Source: a virus. From it: a stretch of 29,482 bases of DNA. Positions 7,725-29,087 of this stretch are shown piece after piece; positions within the stretch are counted from its first letter, which is position 1; the number at the start of each line of letters is the position of its first letter. The notes beneath the pieces are model-generated. The model made no database searches. It was not told where the DNA came from and saw only the letters and a list, made by a program, of their open reading frames with translations. Location: positions 1 through 29,482 of IMG/VR virus record IMGVR_UViG_3300034374_003180; one strand, given 5' to 3'. A program made the translations under genes and the position numbers.

Positions 7725-8307
7725 CTCAGCATTAAAAAACGGCACAAAGCAATTCGAGGGATACCCGCCCACACAAAGGTTTGAACATGAGGGCTGCATC
7801 GGTATGCGGCGTAACATAATAACCGAGGGGTATTTTGCAGAGTTAGAAACCTGTGATATTATTTATTGCGAGCCACCATTCCCTGCGGGAGTAAAGGTGT
7901 TTGATGAGCGAGCTAAAGAAAAGACATCATCTTATAACGATTTTGCCCACCAGTTTGCAGTGCTTTGGGAAAGACTTTCACACAAACCAAGATTGGCTAT
8001 TACTAACAAGCGGTTAGAAAAAGCACTTCCAAAACCAGATGTGCAAGTAAAAGTCAGGCTGAATACCAATTGGGAAACACTTAGCTGTTGGGGCATAACA
8101 CCACCTAGCGGAATGAGTAATCTAGGGGTGTGTGAATATCTGGGTAAGACATTCAATAGAATGGGGGATATTACATGCGGCTATGGTGTTCCTGTCTTGC
8201 ACTTTAAGAAAGTAAAATCTGGCAATACATTTGTAGCATCAGATTATGACGCTCACTGCATTACAGTTTTAAGGATGTTGATGAATGAAAATACACCTCA
8301 AAGATAA
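7711..8307 (+). CDS. Divergent DNA methyltransferase-like protein, 198 aa
   Basis: TTAGGA nine bases upstream supports the ATG at 7711 rather than that at 7702. CDIIYCEPPFPAG (residues 48-60) resembles motif IV of amino-methyltransferases ([DNS]PP[YFW]) but with E in the first place. Later GDITCGYG (152-159) and SDYDAHCI (177-184) resemble the motif I region (DPxxGxG) and the acidic SAM-binding turn, giving the permuted IV-then-I order. The E and the changed glycines make activity uncertain. It may be a catalytic relative acting on another substrate. It ends overlapping the PAPS-reductase-like gene by 23 bases. Confidence 0.6.
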   Translation: MTIYNSALKNGTKQFEGYPPTQRFEHEGCIGMRRNIITEGYFAELETCDIIYCEPPFPAGVKVFDERAKEKTSSYNDFAHQFAVLWERLSHKPRLAITNKRLEKALPKPDVQVKVRLNTNWETLSCWGITPPSGMSNLGVCEYLGKTFNRMGDITCGYGVPVLHFKKVKSGNTFVASDYDAHCITVLRMLMNENTPQR

Positions 8308-9442
8308 TGTTTGCGATGCAGCATTAGAGCGTATTCGTTACATCTTTGACGAGTTTGAGAACGTAATAGTATCGTTTTCAGGCGGCAAGGATAGCACAGT
8401 AACCCTTGAGATGGCGTTAATCGTTGCGCGTGAAAGAAATCGCTTGCCGCTTAAAGTATTATTTTTAGATCAGGAAGCCGAATGGCAGTGCGTAATTGAC
8501 TATGTGCAAGAAGTCATGGAGCGGGATGAGATTGAACCGATGTGGTTTCAAATGCCCATCCGTTTGACCAATAGTACATCGAATGAGCAACACTATCTGC
8601 ATTGTTGGGAGGACGGTAGCGAATGGATGCGCGAAAAAGTCCCTTACGCTATTACAGAAAACGATTATGGCACAGATCGGTTCCACGAACTTTTCCCCGC
8701 AATATACAAAAAGCACTGGGATGGGCAAAGGCTTGCTGTTTTGGCAGGGATCAGGGCAGAAGAAAGCCCCGCTCGACTAGCGGGACTAACAACGGCGGCG
8801 ACTTATAAGTGGGTTACATGGGGTAAACATCCAAACAAAAGCCGAGAGCATTACAATTTCTACCCCCTGTATGATTGGTCATATACTGATATTTGGAAAT
8901 CCATCCATGACAATAATTGGTCATATTCCAAAGCGTATGATTACTTTTATCAATATGGAGTAAGCCCAACCAAGATGCGCGTGTCAAATCTTCACCATGA
9001 AACAGCAGTTCATCAGTTGTTTTATTTACAGGAGATTGAGCGAGACACATGGAACAAGCTGACAAAGCGTCTAGGCGGTATTAATCAGGCACGGCATATG
9101 ACGAAAGAGGATATGTTCCAAGCCAAGAAACTTCCATATATGTTCAAGGATTGGAAAGAATACAGAGATCATCTGTTGATAAATCTTGTTACTGATCATG
9201 ATTACCAAGAGGCCATGCGTAAGAAGTTCGCGCAGATGGACAATGTTTATGCTGCAATGAAAGATATATCCAAGCTGCATAAGGTGCATGTTGCTACAGT
9301 CTTAGCACAGGATATTGATTTCACTAAATGCAGTAATTTCGAGCAAGGGCCGTATGCTATAACTTATCGTCGTTGGAAGCGCGGCGACACGAAGTTTGTG
9401 CAGCGGTCAGAACATAGGGACTGGATACCAGTAAAGACATGA
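8285..9442 (+). CDS. ibrA: IbrA-like PAPS reductase-family ATP pyrophosphatase (DUF3440-type), 385 aa
   Basis: The PP-loop VSFSGGKDSTVTL (SGGKDS at 32-37) marks an adenine-nucleotide alpha hydrolase of the PAPS reductase family, followed by VLFLDQEAEW. The second half (YPLYDWSYTDIWKSI, YDYFYQYGVSPTKMRVSNL) has the extended region seen in DUF3440/IbrA proteins; assimilatory PAPS reductases are shorter and have a C-terminal ECGxH, absent here. IbrA with IbrB regulates immunoglobulin-binding genes in E. coli; its chemistry is unknown. The ATGA overlap with the downstream ParB-like gene reproduces the IbrA-IbrB pair. Confidence 0.87.
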   Translation: MKIHLKDNVCDAALERIRYIFDEFENVIVSFSGGKDSTVTLEMALIVARERNRLPLKVLFLDQEAEWQCVIDYVQEVMERDEIEPMWFQMPIRLTNSTSNEQHYLHCWEDGSEWMREKVPYAITENDYGTDRFHELFPAIYKKHWDGQRLAVLAGIRAEESPARLAGLTTAATYKWVTWGKHPNKSREHYNFYPLYDWSYTDIWKSIHDNNWSYSKAYDYFYQYGVSPTKMRVSNLHHETAVHQLFYLQEIERDTWNKLTKRLGGINQARHMTKEDMFQAKKLPYMFKDWKEYRDHLLINLVTDHDYQEAMRKKFAQMDNVYAAMKDISKLHKVHVATVLAQDIDFTKCSNFEQGPYAITYRRWKRGDTKFVQRSEHRDWIPVKT

Positions 9443-10101
9443 AGATCATTAGTCAACTAGAGCAAGCCTTACATGGGCTAAGTGAGAACGACAAAATAGA
9501 AATGATCGAAAAGATCAAAGATCACTTGCATAAGGAAAGCCCAATCCAACAGCCCGTTGATCGGGTCTATTGGGTTGATGTTGATAAAGTAGAGGCTAAC
9601 GATTACAACCCCAACAGTGTAGCGGGTAAAGAAATGCGTTTGCTTTACACCTCAATCAAGCATGACGGATACACGCAGCCCGTAGTAACCATCTATGACG
9701 AAGAAAAAGGCAAGTATGTCATCGTAGATGGGTTTCACCGCTATTTTATCTGTAAGAGCAATCAGGACATCAGAGATCGTAACAAGGGCAGACTGCCCAT
9801 CGTTGTCATTGAGAAAGACATCAATGATCGTATGGCCTCAACAGTCCGTCACAATCGGGCCAGAGGCGCACACTCAGTCGATGGCATGGCGAACATGGTA
9901 TTCTCTATGTTAGAGGAAGGTTGGGGCGATGCGGAAATCTGTAACCAGTTGGGTATGGAGCCAGAAGAATTATTGCGGCTAAAGCATATTACTGGCTTCT
10001 CAAAGCTATTTGTAGATGCCGAATACAAAAAGGCATGGGTAACTAAACAGCAAATCTTGATTAAAAAGAAGTGGCAAGATGAGCATGGGGTTGACCAATA
10101 G
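9439..10101 (+). CDS. ibrB: IbrB-like ParB nuclease-domain protein, 220 aa
   Basis: A 35-residue helical N-terminus, then a ParB domain with VDVDKVEANDYNPNSV (46-61), a KHDGYTQPVV turn and the IVDGFHRYF signature (95-103), and TVRHNRARGAHS later; the C-terminal half contains a helix-turn-helix-like EICNQLGMEPEELLRLK. The VDGFHR form is typical of IbrB-like proteins paired with PAPS-reductase-like IbrA. Overlap by 4 bases with the upstream gene implies fixed stoichiometry. In this phage it could act on DNA with IbrA or as a transcription regulator. It is a second, distinct ParB-fold protein in the cluster. Confidence 0.85.
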   Translation: MKIISQLEQALHGLSENDKIEMIEKIKDHLHKESPIQQPVDRVYWVDVDKVEANDYNPNSVAGKEMRLLYTSIKHDGYTQPVVTIYDEEKGKYVIVDGFHRYFICKSNQDIRDRNKGRLPIVVIEKDINDRMASTVRHNRARGAHSVDGMANMVFSMLEEGWGDAEICNQLGMEPEELLRLKHITGFSKLFVDAEYKKAWVTKQQILIKKKWQDEHGVDQ

Positions 10102-16135: not shown

Positions 16136-16735
16136 CTAGCAGAACCCGACATGATTACCTCCGTAATAATCAAAGTAATCATCTCCACAAATGACGTCAG
16201 CATTTATCAAGTCTACAAAATTATAAACCTCTGTAAAAACTGGTTTGTTTTTCTTCAATCTGTTTTTTCTCACTACTTGTTTATTAAATATTGGTCGCAT
16301 CTTTGCAATCGCTAACGCTTCTACATCTCTTGCCTCTTCATATGTTTGGAAATATGATGTCATAATAAAATCAACTGAGTACCACCATGATTTATCATTT
16401 CGGTGCTGTCTTATTCGACTGCGAAGATTGTAAGTACAGCCAATGTAAAGGGGTATTACTCTCTTGTTTGGGCTATTCCCCTCTTTGTCGGCGTCTGGTA
16501 AAGAGCCAAGCAAGTAAACAGAATAGTGTTTTTTGAATGTTTTATGAGAACGATCCCTGCCCTCTGGCAAGCACTCAAAATGGTTCCAGATAAAGGCATT
16601 AGCAAATTGTTCATCTGAGGCCGCAGTTAATGGTTTGTCTTTCGGAAATGACATGGAATAGTTAAGACCATGGTTCCAATAATACATAGTCTCAGGGGGC
16701 GTTCTGGTCCATTTCTTTAGAGAAAGTTTAGTCAT
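16136..16735 (-). CDS. GIY-YIG nuclease-domain protein, 199 aa
   Basis: GIY-YIG endonuclease core from residue 70: YSVYLLG, then IPLYIGCTYNLRSRIRQH (tyrosine Y97, arginines R105 and R107, H111), WWYSVDFI, and the helix TYEEARDVEALAIAKMRPIFN with the metal-binding E139 and N151. The first 65 residues are an unrelated extension that may give specificity. Such domains occur in homing endonucleases, which invade phage genomes, and in stand-alone proteins. GGAGGT lies just before the ATG, which overlaps the upstream stop by 8 bases. Confidence 0.85.
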   Translation of the reverse strand: MTKLSLKKWTRTPPETMYYWNHGLNYSMSFPKDKPLTAASDEQFANAFIWNHFECLPEGRDRSHKTFKKHYSVYLLGSLPDADKEGNSPNKRVIPLYIGCTYNLRSRIRQHRNDKSWWYSVDFIMTSYFQTYEEARDVEALAIAKMRPIFNKQVVRKNRLKKNKPVFTEVYNFVDLINADVICGDDYFDYYGGNHVGFC

Positions 16736-21894: not shown

Positions 21895-24800
21895 ATGGCG
21901 AAAAAAGTGTTCGTGAATAGAGCCAAAATGTCCACAGCGACTACAGGCACATCGACAATTACCTTAGGGTCAGCCGTAGCGGGTTATCAAACATTTGAAG
22001 AAGCAGGGGTCGTAAACGGAGATGAGGTCCGTTACGTCATTGAGGATGGCGACAACTGGGAAATTGGCACTGGCACATACACAAGTTCGGGTACTTCACT
22101 TTCCAGAACAGTTTTGGAAAGCAATAATGCTGATAGCGCAATAAGCCTGTCAGGAACAGCCTATGTATTTATTACCTCTGCGGCTGATGATTTCGTCCAG
22201 TTAGATGGCGATACAATGACGGGCGATCTTGGGTTGACTGACAACTCAAAGCTTTCAATCGGTACTGATAATGATCTTGAAATCGTTCATAACGGAACGA
22301 ACACTATAATTAATGAGCGTGGCACAGGTTCCTTAAAGTTCCAAGTTGGTGGGACAGATGTTGCGACAGTAACCAGTAGCGGGTTTACAACTAATGTTAC
22401 GGGTAATGTTACGGGTAACTTAACGGGGGATGTTAAGGCAACTAATGGCACATCTGTATTGGACAGCGGTACTGATGGAACAGATGCGACCTTTACTGGA
22501 AGCGTTACTGGTAATGTTACTGGTAATTTAACAGGGGATGTTACTGGAAATGCAGATACCGCCTCTGCCCTTGAGACAGGGCGTACAATTAGCCTAACGG
22601 GTGATGTTAGTGGCAGCACCACATTTGACGGTTCAGCTAATGTCAGCATCACTGCAACGGTTGCAGACGATAGCCATGACCACACTAATGCGACTACAAG
22701 CGCAGATGGCTTCATGTCCGCATCTGACAAAACGAAGCTTGATGGGGTTGAGGCAAACGCTACAGCGGATCAAACAGCCAGTGAGATATTGACCGCCATT
22801 AAAACAGTTGATGGCTCTGGTTCAGGGTTAGATGCAGACCTTCTTGATGGTAATCAAGCAAGTGCGTTTGCTACTTCAAGCCATAACCACACTCTGGATA
22901 GCCTTTCCAATGTTACTATTACATCGAATAGTTCGGGTGAAATCCTAAAATGGAATGGAACCGCGTGGGTAAACAATACTCTTGAAGAGGTAGGGGCGCT
23001 TACTGCGAACCAAACAATCACACTGAGCGGAGATGTAAGCGGTTCTGGGACCACATCTATTAGCGTGACTGTGGCGGATGATAGCCATAACCACGTCATT
23101 TCAAATGTCGATGGACTGCAAACATCTCTGAACAGTAAGTTAAGTCTCAGCGGCGGGACAATGACGGGTACTCTGACCTTGAATGCTGATCCTACTTCTA
23201 ATTTACACGCTGCGACGAAAGAATATGTGGATACAATTGCTGCGGCGGGTATTCATTACCATGATCCAGTTAGGGTTGAAGCACCAAGCAATCTCAACGC
23301 TACATACAACAACGGCTCATCTGGTGTGGGTGCCACTCTTACAAATGCAGGGACCAATGCGGCTATAAGCATTGATGGGGTTTCTCTAAGCCTCAATGAT
23401 CGTGTGTTGGTCTATAATCAAACAAACTCAGCGCACAATGGGATTTATTACGTTTCAACTGTTGGGGATGGCTCAACCGCTTGGGTTCTTACCCGTGCTA
23501 CGGATGCAGATAGCTATGGTGCTTCTGACAAGGATGCTCTTGGTGAGGGCGATGCGTTCTTTGTAAAGGAAGGTAGTACTGGCGCGGGTGAACTCTATGT
23601 AATGAACCAAACTGGTGCGATTACCTTTGGCACAACAGCGATTACATTCACAGTTGTTGCTGAAACGGCGGTCTATACCGCTGGAACTGGCATCACTTTG
23701 ACAGGAACTCAATTCTCTATTGGTCAAGATGTTGCTACCACAGCAAGCCCAAGTTTTGCGGGAGCAACCTTTACGGGTGATGTAACTTTTTCAGGCAGTG
23801 TTTATGACGTTGTTTGGGATAATTCTACTAATTCCTTAGAATTTCCAGATAACGCACAGATAAGACTTGGTTCATCTTCTGATTTTACACTATATCATTC
23901 AACTAATAATTTTATAGATATTTATACGGGTAATCTCTATATAAGGCAATTTGGTAATGATTTAGATGTTCTTATTCAAAGTGATAATGGCTCTGGCGGT
24001 ACTACAAATTATTTTATTGCAGATGGATCAACAGGCGAAGTTCAGCTATATCATTATGGGAGCCAGAAGCTTGCGACAAAGACAGGCGGTGTCGAAGTAA
24101 CAGGAACAGTAACCGCAACCGCATTCTCAGGGGATGGTTCTTCCCTTACGGGCATCTCTACTGATTTGGTAGGTGACACCACACCTCAACTTGGCGGGAC
24201 ACTTGATACCAATGGCAATTTAATTCAATTTGGAGACAGTGGTAGTGCAACTGATGATAGGCTGCAATTTGGTGCTTCCCAAGACCTAGAAATTTATCAT
24301 GATGGAAGCCACACGCGCCTTGTAAAAAGTGGTGATGGAAAACTCATAGTATCGTCTGGCGCTAATAACAATATCGACATTAATGCAGGGACAGGCGGGA
24401 ATACTATTGAGTTGATAGCATCAACGGGGCAGGTAAAGCTATATTATGGGGGTTCAAAAAAGTTTGAAACAACATCAACTGGCGCACTGGTTACGGGGCA
24501 GCTTGACGTAGGTGATATTAGTATTGACGAAAGTACAATAAGTGACGCAACTGGTGCCTTAACAATAGATGTCGCCACCGAAATCATTTTAGATGCAGAC
24601 GATTTTGGCAAAGTTCAGTTTTATGACGGTGGAACGCATTACGGAACTTTTCGAAGAAACGGCAGTGATGTAGAAATAAAAACTATTATATCAGATGCAG
24701 ATATAAAGTTTATTGGTGTTGATGGTGGTGGTGCAGTTACCGCCCTTACCCTTGATATGTCTGATGCTGGTACAGCTATCTTCAACCATGACATATCATT

Positions 24801-26352
24801 GCCCGACAATGGTAAGGTTAAAATTGGGTCTTCAGATGATCTGCAACTTTACCACAATACAGCTACAAGTTTTATAGATAATTATGTAGGTAATTTAGAT
24901 ATAAGAAACTTTTCAGACGATGCAAATGTTCGTATTCAAAGTGATAATGGCTCTGGTGGCACTGCAACATACCTTACAGCAAATGGGTCAACTGGAGAAG
25001 TTCAGCTATACCATTACGGATCAGAAAAACTTGCAACGAAAAGCACAGGTATTGATGTTACTGGCAACATAACAGTATCAGGCACCGTTGATGGTCGTGA
25101 TGTTGCTACTGATGGCACTAAACTTGATACTATTGCAACAAACGCAGATGTCACGCCTTCTTGGGTTCCAGCAAGTGATCCCAGCTATTTAACTGCACAC
25201 CCAAGCATCACGGCGGCTTCAAGCGTTGACAATACTGGCGCGGCTGTAATCCAAGACGTAACGCTAGATACCAATGGTCACGTCACTGGGCTTGCCTCTA
25301 AGACACTTAGCTATACAGATGTAGGCGCTGCGGCTTCTAGCCACACGCACACATCAAGTCAAATCACTGACTTCCAAGAGGCTGTTGAAGACAGAATTGG
25401 TGCGGCTATTACCGCAGGTTCAAACATTACAGTCAGCTATAATGACACTACTGGGGAAACAACAATTGCCGCAACCGATACGAACACCACATATTCGGCT
25501 GGTTCTGGTATAGACCTTACTGGGACAACATTCAGCCATTCGGACACGTCCTCTCAAGCCTCTGTAAGCAATGCAGGGCGCACATACATCCAAAGCATAA
25601 CATTGGACACATATGGGCATATTACTTCTATCTCAAGCGGGACTGAGACTGTTGTAAACACTGATACAAACACCACAAGCCTAGCGATTGAAAATGGAAG
25701 TGGCGCATCGCAATTTACTGTAACGGATACGGTAGGATTGGAATTTGCTGCGAGTGGCGCGACATCAGTTGCTTTCGATAGCACCAATAAACGGGTTACA
25801 TTTTCAAGCACAGATACCAATACAACTTATGGTGCTGGCAGCGGGCTTACCCTTTCAAGCACTACCTTCAGCGTAAACGCGGATCAGAGGTCCGTAATTA
25901 CACAAATCGGTCAAGATACAAACGATTACATTTCTGTTGGTACAACCAATATTGATTTTGTGCTTGATGGGAATGTTGATGCGCGTATTGAAAACGATGG
26001 TGACTTCCATGCAGATGGAAACGTCATAGCGTATTCAACCACTATCTCTGATCCACGCCTCAAAGAAAACATAAAGCCTGTAACAAATGGGCTTGAGAAG
26101 GTCATGCAGCTTAATGGCTACACCTTCGATTACAAGGCTGATGGGGTATCAAGCGCGGGTGTTATGTCCCCAGAGGTCGCAAAGGTTCTGCCTTCTGCTA
26201 TTAAGAAGTCAAAGCTGAAACTGAAAATGGGCGATGATAACGAAACTGAATATGATATTGTTCAGTATGATCAGCTTACAGCTTTGCTCATCGAAGCTAT
26301 CAAAGACTTAAAAGCAGAAATTGAGGAACTAAAAAATGGCTCTCACAAGTAG
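21895..26352 (+). CDS. Long tail fibre with self-cleaving chaperone domain, 1485 aa
   Basis: Forms a fibrous trimer for host contact. N-terminus MAKKVFVNRAKMSTATTGT through SLSRTVLESNNAD is a conserved virion-attachment region. Repeats follow: VTGNVTGNLTGDV twice near residues 170-220, and a block of about 80 residues (SDNGSGG..., GEVQLYHYGS..KLATK) at about 658-740 and 977-1060. A further domain around 455-560 (HYHDPVRVEAPSNLNATYNN) occurs in many phage tail proteins. The C-terminus (1385-1485) is a peptidase S74 intramolecular chaperone: S1385 and K1390 in SDPRLKENI have the spacing of the Ser-Lys cleavage dyad. The end is a coiled coil. Overlaps the next gene by 17 bases. Confidence 0.9.
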   Translation: MAKKVFVNRAKMSTATTGTSTITLGSAVAGYQTFEEAGVVNGDEVRYVIEDGDNWEIGTGTYTSSGTSLSRTVLESNNADSAISLSGTAYVFITSAADDFVQLDGDTMTGDLGLTDNSKLSIGTDNDLEIVHNGTNTIINERGTGSLKFQVGGTDVATVTSSGFTTNVTGNVTGNLTGDVKATNGTSVLDSGTDGTDATFTGSVTGNVTGNLTGDVTGNADTASALETGRTISLTGDVSGSTTFDGSANVSITATVADDSHDHTNATTSADGFMSASDKTKLDGVEANATADQTASEILTAIKTVDGSGSGLDADLLDGNQASAFATSSHNHTLDSLSNVTITSNSSGEILKWNGTAWVNNTLEEVGALTANQTITLSGDVSGSGTTSISVTVADDSHNHVISNVDGLQTSLNSKLSLSGGTMTGTLTLNADPTSNLHAATKEYVDTIAAAGIHYHDPVRVEAPSNLNATYNNGSSGVGATLTNAGTNAAISIDGVSLSLNDRVLVYNQTNSAHNGIYYVSTVGDGSTAWVLTRATDADSYGASDKDALGEGDAFFVKEGSTGAGELYVMNQTGAITFGTTAITFTVVAETAVYTAGTGITLTGTQFSIGQDVATTASPSFAGATFTGDVTFSGSVYDVVWDNSTNSLEFPDNAQIRLGSSSDFTLYHSTNNFIDIYTGNLYIRQFGNDLDVLIQSDNGSGGTTNYFIADGSTGEVQLYHYGSQKLATKTGGVEVTGTVTATAFSGDGSSLTGISTDLVGDTTPQLGGTLDTNGNLIQFGDSGSATDDRLQFGASQDLEIYHDGSHTRLVKSGDGKLIVSSGANNNIDINAGTGGNTIELIASTGQVKLYYGGSKKFETTSTGALVTGQLDVGDISIDESTISDATGALTIDVATEIILDADDFGKVQFYDGGTHYGTFRRNGSDVEIKTIISDADIKFIGVDGGGAVTALTLDMSDAGTAIFNHDISLPDNGKVKIGSSDDLQLYHNTATSFIDNYVGNLDIRNFSDDANVRIQSDNGSGGTATYLTANGSTGEVQLYHYGSEKLATKSTGIDVTGNITVSGTVDGRDVATDGTKLDTIATNADVTPSWVPASDPSYLTAHPSITAASSVDNTGAAVIQDVTLDTNGHVTGLASKTLSYTDVGAAASSHTHTSSQITDFQEAVEDRIGAAITAGSNITVSYNDTTGETTIAATDTNTTYSAGSGIDLTGTTFSHSDTSSQASVSNAGRTYIQSITLDTYGHITSISSGTETVVNTDTNTTSLAIENGSGASQFTVTDTVGLEFAASGATSVAFDSTNKRVTFSSTDTNTTYGAGSGLTLSSTTFSVNADQRSVITQIGQDTNDYISVGTTNIDFVLDGNVDARIENDGDFHADGNVIAYSTTISDPRLKENIKPVTNGLEKVMQLNGYTFDYKADGVSSAGVMSPEVAKVLPSAIKKSKLKLKMGDDNETEYDIVQYDQLTALLIEAIKDLKAEIEELKNGSHK
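22393..22550. repeat. Imperfect repeats coding VTGN-type units
   Basis: Near-identical stretches at 22393-22440 and 22502-22550 encode NVTGNVTGNLTGDV and SVTGNVTGNLTGDV; each is itself made of short GTTACNGGTAAT-like units. They form a low-complexity beta shaft and are a likely place for copy-number change by slippage. Confidence 0.75.
23868..25080. repeat. Two diverged copies of an 80-residue fibre module
   Basis: The segment at about 23868-24110 and that at about 24826-25070 share long runs at both DNA and protein level, for example ATTCAAAGTGATAATGGCTC and GAAGTTCAGCTATA. A partial third copy (STGQVKLYYGGSKKFET) lies at about 24420-24480. The fibre shaft evidently grew by internal duplication. 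Confidence 0.8.
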
Positions 26353-27661
26353 CGGTCAAATTGATCTCAACGCAATGCATGTCGAAGCGGGGGGCACTAC
26401 TGGTACCGAATGCACTTTGAACGATGCAGATATTCGCGGCTTAATCAGCAAGGGCGCGGGGGCGCAGAACGCATTCAACGAATATTACGGGGCAAGTTCT
26501 TCAGCTACGCCACAAAACATTTCAAGTACCTCATCAATAAATGGAACCACTATTAATGGTTTCATGGCTATATATGCACATGATAATGGCGACTTTCAGT
26601 TACATTTTAGATATGATGGATTAAATTATAATACTCGCGCTATGTCGACAAATGATGGTGCTAGTTGGAGTACAACCGCCCAAACAGGCCCAAGTGGAAG
26701 TAACACGACTAATGTACCGCTAACAGTTTTTACCAATGCCAATAGGACGTTTTTACCATTTGGCAGTGCAGGGGGGCTTTACGCTCAGTATCAATCAGGA
26801 AAATTTTCCAATATGTCTTTTTGGATTTTGACTGATAATGGCCATGACCTTCAAATACCTAATAGTCAGAATTATGGAGTACAAGTATTTCAACTAGGCA
26901 GGGATCAAAACAATAAAACAGGTCAAATTATTGCTGTAGGATCATCCCAAAATGGTTGGCAGTGGAACGGGTCGTATTCATCTACCGCAGTAGCAAGTTC
27001 GAATGTAACCAGTTTCCCAATGCCATCAACCTCAATTGGTTATGCTTACTCAAGACCTTGGAAAAAAGGCAGTAATCTTTTCATTGTAGGAAGGGGTGGT
27101 AGTAATTCAACTCAAGACCCAATTGTTTCACTTTATTCTTCAAATAGTGGATCAAGTTATTCGGCAACCACAATTAGAACTCTAAATACCAGCACTGAGG
27201 CCAATCAAAACTTATGGATACAGGGTTACGCGGTAGATGAAGCAAATGATGATTTTTATTGTTTAATACGCGTAACCCTGAATACTGGAGGAAGTAGAGA
27301 TCATATGTACAAAACAACCGCCTCTAATGCTGGCGCAAGTTGGACGCAAGTAAGTAGTGATATTTTAGATGATTGTTTTGGCAGAACAAATACTAATGAT
27401 GTTGGCACTGTGAGTGATTTTGATGTTTACGGTGGTTGTTTCTGTGTAGCATGGACAAATGTTTCGGGAACTAGTGCAAACTATTCTTCTGGTTCATCTG
27501 TTTATAGTTTGCGTGATGGTGGATGGGGTAGTTCTAGTTGGGTCAATCACTTAGTAACGCTTTCTACCCGACAAACTAATCAGGGGATCAAGAAGGTAGC
27601 AATAAATAGCAACAAAAAAGCCATTGCGCTAGAGCTTCATACATTGAGGAGATTTTATTAA
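26336..27661 (+). CDS. Tail protein with Asp-box-like propeller region, 441 aa
   Basis: The first 53 residues (SSGQIDLNAMHVEAGG, LNDADIRGLISKG, AFNEYYGAS) match a short adaptor found at the start of many marine phage tail proteins. The remaining 390 residues are beta-rich with Asp-box-like turns STNDGASWS (104-112), a weaker SSNSGSSYS near 270 and TTASNAGASWTQ near 330, as in sialidase-type beta propellers. It may bind or trim host surface sugars; no catalytic Arg triad could be identified, so binding is likelier than hydrolysis. GAGGAA precedes the start inside the fibre gene. Confidence 0.75.
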   Translation: MALTSSGQIDLNAMHVEAGGTTGTECTLNDADIRGLISKGAGAQNAFNEYYGASSSATPQNISSTSSINGTTINGFMAIYAHDNGDFQLHFRYDGLNYNTRAMSTNDGASWSTTAQTGPSGSNTTNVPLTVFTNANRTFLPFGSAGGLYAQYQSGKFSNMSFWILTDNGHDLQIPNSQNYGVQVFQLGRDQNNKTGQIIAVGSSQNGWQWNGSYSSTAVASSNVTSFPMPSTSIGYAYSRPWKKGSNLFIVGRGGSNSTQDPIVSLYSSNSGSSYSATTIRTLNTSTEANQNLWIQGYAVDEANDDFYCLIRVTLNTGGSRDHMYKTTASNAGASWTQVSSDILDDCFGRTNTNDVGTVSDFDVYGGCFCVAWTNVSGTSANYSSGSSVYSLRDGGWGSSSWVNHLVTLSTRQTNQGIKKVAINSNKKAIALELHTLRRFY

Positions 27662-28213
27662 ATGTATGAATTTAGATGTGAAGATGAATATGATCCTGAA
27701 AAAATGATATATGTTTTATCAGATAGTCAAAAGGCTATGTCTGAAGCGGTTATGTTTAAACAGGGGTCTGATGATTTAGAATATTTAATAAATTATTGGG
27801 ATAGCACAATTCGCACCCTTGCGGAGCAAGAGGAATACAAATTCCATCAAGCATGGCGTGGCGATCAATTGGTAATGTATGGCGTTGCTGGGGTTTTCAA
27901 TGATAGATACCATCAAGGCGCTGGGTTTTACAGATCATACGAAGGTAGTCGAACTTGGACATTTTCAAGGGAATTTTGGCTGCAACACGTTGAATATTGC
28001 AAAACATTGCATACAAATAGAATAAGTGCGGACGTAAAGAAGCTTGATGATAATAATGAACAAACTCCTCATTGGTCAATGTTGCAGCTTATCCCTCAAA
28101 GGATTGGTCTTTGGATGACAACAGAAGAGACAGAACAGGAAAACGTAGGTAGATGGACTATGTATTTTAATGAGAGAATATATCAAGAACTCAATCCACA
28201 CCTTCACGACTAG
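27662..28213 (+). CDS. Hypothetical tail-region protein, 183 aa
   Basis: Begins on the base after the upstream stop, with GAGGAG about 11 bases before the ATG. Aromatic-rich alpha/beta protein (YKFHQAWRGDQLVMYGVAGV, RTWTFSREFWLQHVEYC), no membrane segment or signal. It overlaps the ANL-enzyme gene by 44 bases, so the two are probably made together and may work together: for example as an acceptor or transferase for an activated acyl group. That link is inference; no family was recognised. Confidence 0.65.
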   Translation: MYEFRCEDEYDPEKMIYVLSDSQKAMSEAVMFKQGSDDLEYLINYWDSTIRTLAEQEEYKFHQAWRGDQLVMYGVAGVFNDRYHQGAGFYRSYEGSRTWTFSREFWLQHVEYCKTLHTNRISADVKKLDDNNEQTPHWSMLQLIPQRIGLWMTTEETEQENVGRWTMYFNERIYQELNPHLHD

Positions 28214-29087
28214 CGGCACAACAGGGCATCCAAAACAGGTTCAACACAGCCAAGAGTTTTTGGATGAAGTTTCCCAAGCAAACATTGATCTGTATGGTCA
28301 TACCAAAAAATCCAAACTGTTGAACTATATGGCTCCTATGAGCATAGGAACGGCGGTCATGATGGATAATGTTCAGCGCATGATTGGGTGTGAAGTTCTG
28401 CATGAGAAGTTTAATCCATTTACATTCATAGATTATATCCATGAGGTAAGACCAACATTTATGGTAATGCCGCCAAATATGTGGCGCGTCTTATCTAAGA
28501 TGAGTTCATGGCAGAAATTGGATATGTCCTCATTTGATTTTGTCTCTGTTGGCGGTGATTTCACAGCCAATGGTATGTTACATGATATAGCAAGGCGTGG
28601 AGCTAAGAAGGTTCTCAACGTCTATGGATCAACAGAGGTTCCCCCGCCTGTTTTGTATAGCTATGGAGAAAATCATTATTCTCGCTATAAAACCCCTGAT
28701 GGTGTCAGCATGAAGTTCTCAGACAGGCGAACTCTAATGTGCAAGTGGGATAGTCAAGGTGAATGGTGGGACAGTGAGGATTTGGTAGAGGGTAAAACCG
28801 TCTGGGATTTTTACCTAAAGGGCAGAGAGCGCAACATGTTCAAACAAGACAGTGTTCGTGTTTACCCAGAGGAAGTTGAAAAAACAGCCGTCCATTATGG
28901 TGCATCCATCGCCCTATGTAGACAGGTGAACTTCAATGCTGTTGTTTTTTACACGGGCGATATGAATGAATTTTCATTGCATCAGGAATTGAAACACATT
29001 CCAAGGCTGCGAATGAAAAGGGTAAGTCATATTGAGGTAGATGAAAATTTGCGTAAGATTGTAAGAAATCAATCTATCCCTACTTAA
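28170..29087 (+). CDS. Short ANL-superfamily adenylating enzyme (acyl-CoA synthetase-like), 305 aa
   Basis: Adenylation motifs in the right order: phosphate loop TTSGTTGHPK (13-22), YGSTE (152-156) for the adenine and acyl pocket, DSEDLV (201-206) in place of the usual TGDL, GRERNMFKQDSVRVYPEEVE (218-237) as the hinge, and K296 in NLRKIVRN, the position of the catalytic lysine. These enzymes activate a carboxylic acid as an acyl-adenylate. The usual length is about 500; here the protein begins only 12 residues before the phosphate loop, so the first ~150 residues of the large domain are missing. No clear ribosome site; it overlaps the upstream gene by 44 bases. Its substrate is unknown. Confidence 0.87.
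   Translation: MREYIKNSIHTFTTSGTTGHPKQVQHSQEFLDEVSQANIDLYGHTKKSKLLNYMAPMSIGTAVMMDNVQRMIGCEVLHEKFNPFTFIDYIHEVRPTFMVMPPNMWRVLSKMSSWQKLDMSSFDFVSVGGDFTANGMLHDIARRGAKKVLNVYGSTEVPPPVLYSYGENHYSRYKTPDGVSMKFSDRRTLMCKWDSQGEWWDSEDLVEGKTVWDFYLKGRERNMFKQDSVRVYPEEVEKTAVHYGASIALCRQVNFNAVVFYTGDMNEFSLHQELKHIPRLRMKRVSHIEVDENLRKIVRNQSIPT

Follow-up and report, generated by a model that had tools for sequence, protein, structure and literature searches.

An ANL fold that begins close to its phosphate loop has been seen before in a cellular protein. The ANL enzyme of Dyadobacter fermentans (PDB 4gs5, 358 residues) has only a very short stretch ahead of this loop, which lies near residue 40, and the roughly 150 residues that go before the loop in full-length enzymes are thus not essential to the fold. 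We know of no GNAT partner for this protein. The passage of an acyl group to a GNAT-fold transferase, with an adenylating enzyme of ordinary size as in the SbzB type, is likewise known. In the biosynthesis of SB-203208 the adenylation step belongs to SbzB, and SbzC, a GNAT enzyme, then moves the acyl group off a carrier protein; the N-acyl amino acid synthase FeeM is likewise supplied by an acylated carrier (PMC6331615). As to viral tailoring enzymes, flavin halogenases are known from cyanophages, for example VirX1 of cyanophage Syn10 (PDB 6qgm; PMC8407142), and a halogenase has been reported in 20 of 153 cyanophage genomes (PMC10452541).

The locus described here lies in a 29,482-base IMG/VR virus record (the whole stretch analysed, hereafter the window), which by its terminase, portal, protease and HK97-type capsid genes belongs to a tailed phage; the best matches of the capsid protein are to a Rhizobium phage (45%) and an Azospirillum phage (34%). 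Its plus-strand gene at 28170-29087 encodes a short ANL adenylate-forming enzyme of 305 residues. The Pfam match of this protein (AMP-binding, PF00501, 1.4e-17) is restricted to positions 170-338 of the 384 in the profile, which indicates that the protein starts at the phosphate loop: about 12 residues stand ahead of it, and upstream of the ATG the frame is open for just 7 codons. From there on every expected motif is present on the plus strand, namely the phosphate loop TTSGTTGHPK (A3; residues 13-22, 28206-28235; T14, S15, G16, G19 and P21 invariant), YGSTEVP (A5; residues 152-158, 28623-28643; Y152, G153, T155, E156, V157, P158 and P159 invariant), the ribose-binding Asp position in SEDLVE (A7; Asp204, 28779-28781), the hinge motif Gly218-Arg219 (A8; 28821-28826) and the C-terminal catalytic-position lysine in NLRK..R (A10; Lys296, 29055-29057), the last three and R299 being likewise invariant among the 38 aligned family members. 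An FDxS-like A4 motif was not seen by eye in the family alignment; in NRPS adenylation domains the Asp of motif A4 binds the alpha-amino group. The first-pass annotation had noted both the retention of all motifs after the phosphate loop and the lack of some 150 N-terminal residues, and both observations hold, the latter relative to full-length ANLs. Structure prediction, which it had proposed for this protein and its neighbour, confidently yields the large and the C-terminal domain of the ANL fold (AlphaFold2, pLDDT 90.6), and a Foldseek search places the model with ANLs that include MenE and the amide synthetase McbA, at E-values of about 1e-15 and TMq values of up to 0.79.

The claim that no system of this form had been described does not stand as far as the short form is concerned, for which 4gs5 is a precedent. 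The phage profile aligns to residues 29-268 of 4gs5 at low sequence similarity (E 2.5e-5) and the structures match with an E-value of 5.5e-15; the two differ in that 4gs5 is cellular and the phage enzyme shorter still. Short ANL proteins are also encoded by uncultured Caudovirales (UniProt/BFVD; for example A0A6J7WHT9, 359 residues, TMq 0.75); their name 'Acs' is automatic, and a description of function or partner was not found for them.

The window enzyme has many viral relatives. Direct searches gave six loci, to which a three-sequence profile search added none; a degenerate DNA pattern for YGSTEVPP retrieved 94 viral stretches, and the profile built from the first three proteins matched an open reading frame in all but a few of them. 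After removal of duplicates the family comprises about 88 viral loci with 49 distinct full-length proteins, all of them short (about 305-365 codons), with 12 to about 70 residues ahead of the phosphate loop (12 in the window enzyme, about 30-70 in most relatives). A frameshift in relatives that restores a longer gene and decayed homologues with lost motifs had both been named as signs of a broken gene; we looked for both and found neither, the former in the relatives inspected, the latter among the 38 aligned members. Moreover, the divergence between the window gene and its relative in locus L005 is strongly synonymous (dN 0.10, dS near 2.9). The window enzyme is thus confirmed as a real, conserved, phage-encoded short ANL enzyme. 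Four ANL queries against 50,697 deposited phage records returned remote partial matches only and no full-length family member. Among about 85,000 genomes of bacteria and archaea, a scan that relied on two short peptide patterns, and that may therefore miss distant cellular relatives, gave a single locus on a Chloroflexi MAG contig with viral-looking genes. This locus (L116, PAAV01000010.1) carries halogenase, ANL, nitroreductase, carbamoyltransferase and radical-SAM-like genes, and the contig is apparently that of a phage assigned to a bacterial bin.

The ANL gene does not stand by itself. Directly upstream lies a plus-strand gene for a protein of 183 residues (27662-28213), and the two genes share 44 nucleotides in different frames (28170-28213), an arrangement that suggests translational coupling and bears out the overlap noted in the first-pass annotation. 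The protein has no significant Pfam match. Its AlphaFold2 model, however, which was built from 7 sequences of the window's own partner family (A4) and of which one of five versions was confident (pLDDT 83.8), shows the GNAT topology b-a-a-b-b-b-a-b-a-b-b; Foldseek returned 338 PDB matches at E<=0.001, the best 50 of which are all GNATs or GNAT-containing proteins, with a best match at E 1.1e-7 (probability 1.00). We therefore predict from the model that the gene encodes a GNAT-fold acyltransferase-like protein. The acetyl-CoA motif [RQ]xxGx[GA] is absent from all 29 partner sequences checked, so that the activity could be lost or different.

A search for the gene pair, also proposed in the first-pass annotation, shows that it recurs across viral loci: a partner from one of four families adjoins the ANL gene in 67 of the 69 loci in which enough flank was available or a partner had been detected. 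Almost every pair overlaps, or else a halogenase gene intervenes. Homologues of the window partner lie 5' of the ANL gene and overlap it by 1 to 83 nucleotides in each of the 7 window-type loci. The partners of type A6 are located downstream, as are usually those of type A5, and a fourth type is found in loci L048, L090 and L116; the median gap is -44 nucleotides for A4, -8 for A5 and -17 for A6. The GNAT fold was modelled for A4, whereas position is the basis on which A5, A6 and the L048/L116 type count as partners. Profile comparison among A4, A5 and A6 detected no relation, and a common ancestry of these families is hence not indicated. Among the Pfam families, the A5 partners match best to that of FeeM, an N-acyl amino acid synthase with the GNAT fold (PF21926; 6 of 10 members, E 0.012, all below the Pfam cut-off; the window partner has no match to it). 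In six records taken as a whole, FeeM likewise gave the sole match of this kind, with E-values from 3e-4 to 8e-3, and in two of the six it was confirmed to be the A5 partner itself. An A5 query had no match in the deposited phage records.

The partners have been exchanged while the activating enzyme stayed the same. The ANL proteins of L038 and L025 are 96% identical but their partners only 27%, and between the window and L004 the corresponding values are 98% and 46%. The DNA of the latter two matches at 96-97% identity as far as position 26494 and from 28153 onward, with a sharp mosaic block in between that comprises the body of a fibre-like gene and the partner gene and breaks off just 5' of the ANL start. 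The comparison with L005 is the reverse: there the partner is close (dS 0.33), the ANL is distant (dS near 2.9) and the fibre-like gene has diverged. In the tree the L017 clade, which has A5 partners, is nested within the clade with A6 partners. That the ANL enzyme has changed partners and yet keeps one is our strongest new evidence that the two proteins act together, as these data suggest. Since the partner has a predicted GNAT fold, activation of an acid followed by transfer is the natural reading, and we consider it fairly probable that the pair constitutes a two-enzyme acylation module. In such a module the short ANL enzyme, judged by its invariant residues and fold, would spend ATP to convert a carboxylic acid into an acyl-adenylate, and the partner, judged by its fold, the gene overlap and the constant pairing, would move the acyl group to an acceptor amine or hydroxyl. 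This arrangement resembles SbzB/SbzC and FeeM in that an acyl group is passed to an amide-forming transferase of GNAT fold, with SbzB as the adenylating supplier, but those systems use a carrier protein, and a carrier domain (PF00550) was not found in 23 phage records, which are fragments. The acyl intermediate would thus need another route, and may be handed over directly, as a CoA thioester or via a host carrier protein. With the activator conserved and the partner exchanged, it is probably the partner that sets the acceptor or the product.

What, then, would be acylated? A flavin halogenase gene (PF04820) joins the pair in 29 loci, some of which belong to T4-like phages, and it abuts or overlaps the ANL gene in 27 of the 29. 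Its catalytic lysine and glutamate (K73 and E380 of the L037 protein) are invariant in 11 aligned members, as in viral halogenases of the VirX1 type, which likewise combine PF04820 with these two residues in T4-like phages; by motif we take them to correspond to K79 and E346 of PrnA. Two halogenase genes of deposited phages, HTVC008M and S-B64, were inspected and have no adjoining ANL gene. A fatty acid desaturase gene (PF00487) is present in 8 loci, 3' of the A6 partner, and a small membrane protein (DUF6356) precedes the ANL gene in 24 loci, mostly abutting it directly. A radical SAM protein of 457 residues (neighbour cluster 4, mostly on the opposite strand) is found beside the cassette in 39 loci, for example in L028. 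In the A6-type loci the cassette follows a gp44-like clamp loader gene and precedes a gene pair resembling gp62 and RegA, and in L037, L046, L018 and similar loci the order between these genes is halogenase, ANL, partner and, in part, desaturase and glutaredoxin-like gene. In phage C48C1, which has the closest gp44 found, the genes for gp44, gp62 and RegA are adjacent, and we accordingly read the cassette, from gene order, as an apparent insertion between gp44 and gp62/RegA.

Such a setting invites the explanation that the product of the pair is an N-acyl amino acid or a related amide, which the halogenase and the desaturase would tailor and which would act during infection as a signal, a toxin or a lipid active on membranes. 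The presence of these two tailoring enzymes, one of them in almost constant contact with the ANL gene, favours a small molecule or lipid, and the rank of FeeM among the families matched by A5 partners, the position of the cassette within an early replication operon and apart from fibres and the nitroreductase and carbamoyltransferase genes adjoining the L116 cassette point the same way. On the other hand, no halogenase was found in the window-type records, the similarity to FeeM is weak and the 23 records yielded no carrier protein; we hold this explanation to be possible, and put it forward tentatively.

The window-type loci place the pair in other company. In the window a tail fibre gene for 1485 residues (plus strand, 21895-26352; PHROG tail fibre families, best 1.1e-32) is followed by a fibre-like gene that adjoins the pair (plus strand, 26336-27661), of which the N-terminus only matches a family (PHROG 26746, function unknown), and the position of the pair in a tail-fibre neighbourhood, given in the first-pass annotation, is thus supported. 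Elsewhere in the window a gene with PAPS reductase and DUF3440 domains is followed by a ParB_N gene (8285-10101), a pair that presumably resembles IbrA/IbrB, and the structural gene region contains on the minus strand an open reading frame with a GIY-YIG domain (16136-16735), possibly a homing endonuclease. In the window-type loci as a group the pair comes after fibre genes, and its vicinity also includes DUF6165, a gene for a glycosyltransferase 9 and a GT25/PLOD/2OG protein; in L007 (7928-9745) the last of these is a single chain of 605 residues, encoded close to the fibre genes, in which a PLOD-type glycosyltransferase domain is combined with a GT25 and a 2OG-Fe(II) oxygenase domain.

The position of the pair at fibre genes favours a surface target. 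It would fit with N-acylation of a receptor, either an amino sugar or a lipid, by which superinfection would be blocked, and so would the nearby glycosyltransferase genes and the joint replacement of fibre body and partner in one exchange. However, other cassettes lie between gp44 and gp62, away from fibres, and the one gene of the T4-like loci that had been labelled FIB was not confirmed as a fibre by PHROGs and has been set aside as such; modification of the host surface is a rather doubtful candidate. The same neighbourhood underlies the idea of the first-pass annotation that the pair acylates the phage's own fibre. The pair does lie directly 3' of a fibre-like gene, and fibre body and partner were exchanged together between the window and L004, but this co-exchange was seen once only, the comparison with L005 sets a close partner beside a diverged fibre-like gene and a distant ANL, and the versions in the replication operon have no adjoining fibre, all of which makes decoration of the virion unlikely. 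Thus, of the targets first proposed (a fibre, a surface sugar or a metabolite), the underlying notion of acyl activation fits our data, but the fibre is only one option, since related cassettes lie between gp44 and gp62 and many carry a halogenase or a desaturase, which is no less compatible with a small molecule or lipid.

Could the ANL enzyme work on its own, as an acyl-CoA ligase that aids host utilization of fatty or aromatic acids, with the partner incidental? Its nearest sequence relatives are indeed fatty-acid ligases, aryl-CoA ligases and Cfl, but a partner in 67 of 69 loci, encoded by a gene overlapping that of the ANL enzyme, renders this quite improbable. Finally, that the gene is a decayed fragment of a host ANL gene, as the absent N-terminal part might suggest, or one broken by an upstream frameshift, is rejected as extremely improbable, because every relative is short and the divergence is strongly synonymous (dN << dS), and because the motifs are invariant, the fold is confident, the upstream frame is open for 7 codons only and the single locus in about 85,000 cellular genomes lies on a viral-looking contig.

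We thus return to the two-enzyme acylation module. Its most likely products would be a small molecule or lipid carrying an N-acyl group, or a surface glycan decorated with acyl groups, with the fibre as a third candidate, and in the T4-like relatives the halogenase and sometimes the desaturase may tailor the product further. More speculatively, we envisage a carrier-free, transferable mini-pathway, composed of a compact ANL enzyme, an exchangeable GNAT-fold transferase, often a flavin halogenase and sometimes a desaturase, that might produce, in the course of infection, virus-specific and possibly halogenated N-acyl compounds, which would be diversified by the transferase being swapped and the activator kept constant. 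As cellular short ANLs and ANL-GNAT pairs exist, the parts of the phage module are already known. A search of the literature on phage ANLs and ANL-halogenase cassettes retrieved nothing relevant, and the pairing in phages, the exchange of partners and the halogenase cassette appear to be undescribed.

Taken together, our results suggest that the uncultured phages with this two-gene unit attach acyl groups to some molecule during infection. To our knowledge no native substrate has been established for the viral halogenases, and a constant activator with an overlapping partner offers a short, testable route to their chemistry. If our reading is true, the combination of a constant activator with a swapped transferase would be a new viral way to diversify chemical modification, comparable to serotype switching.
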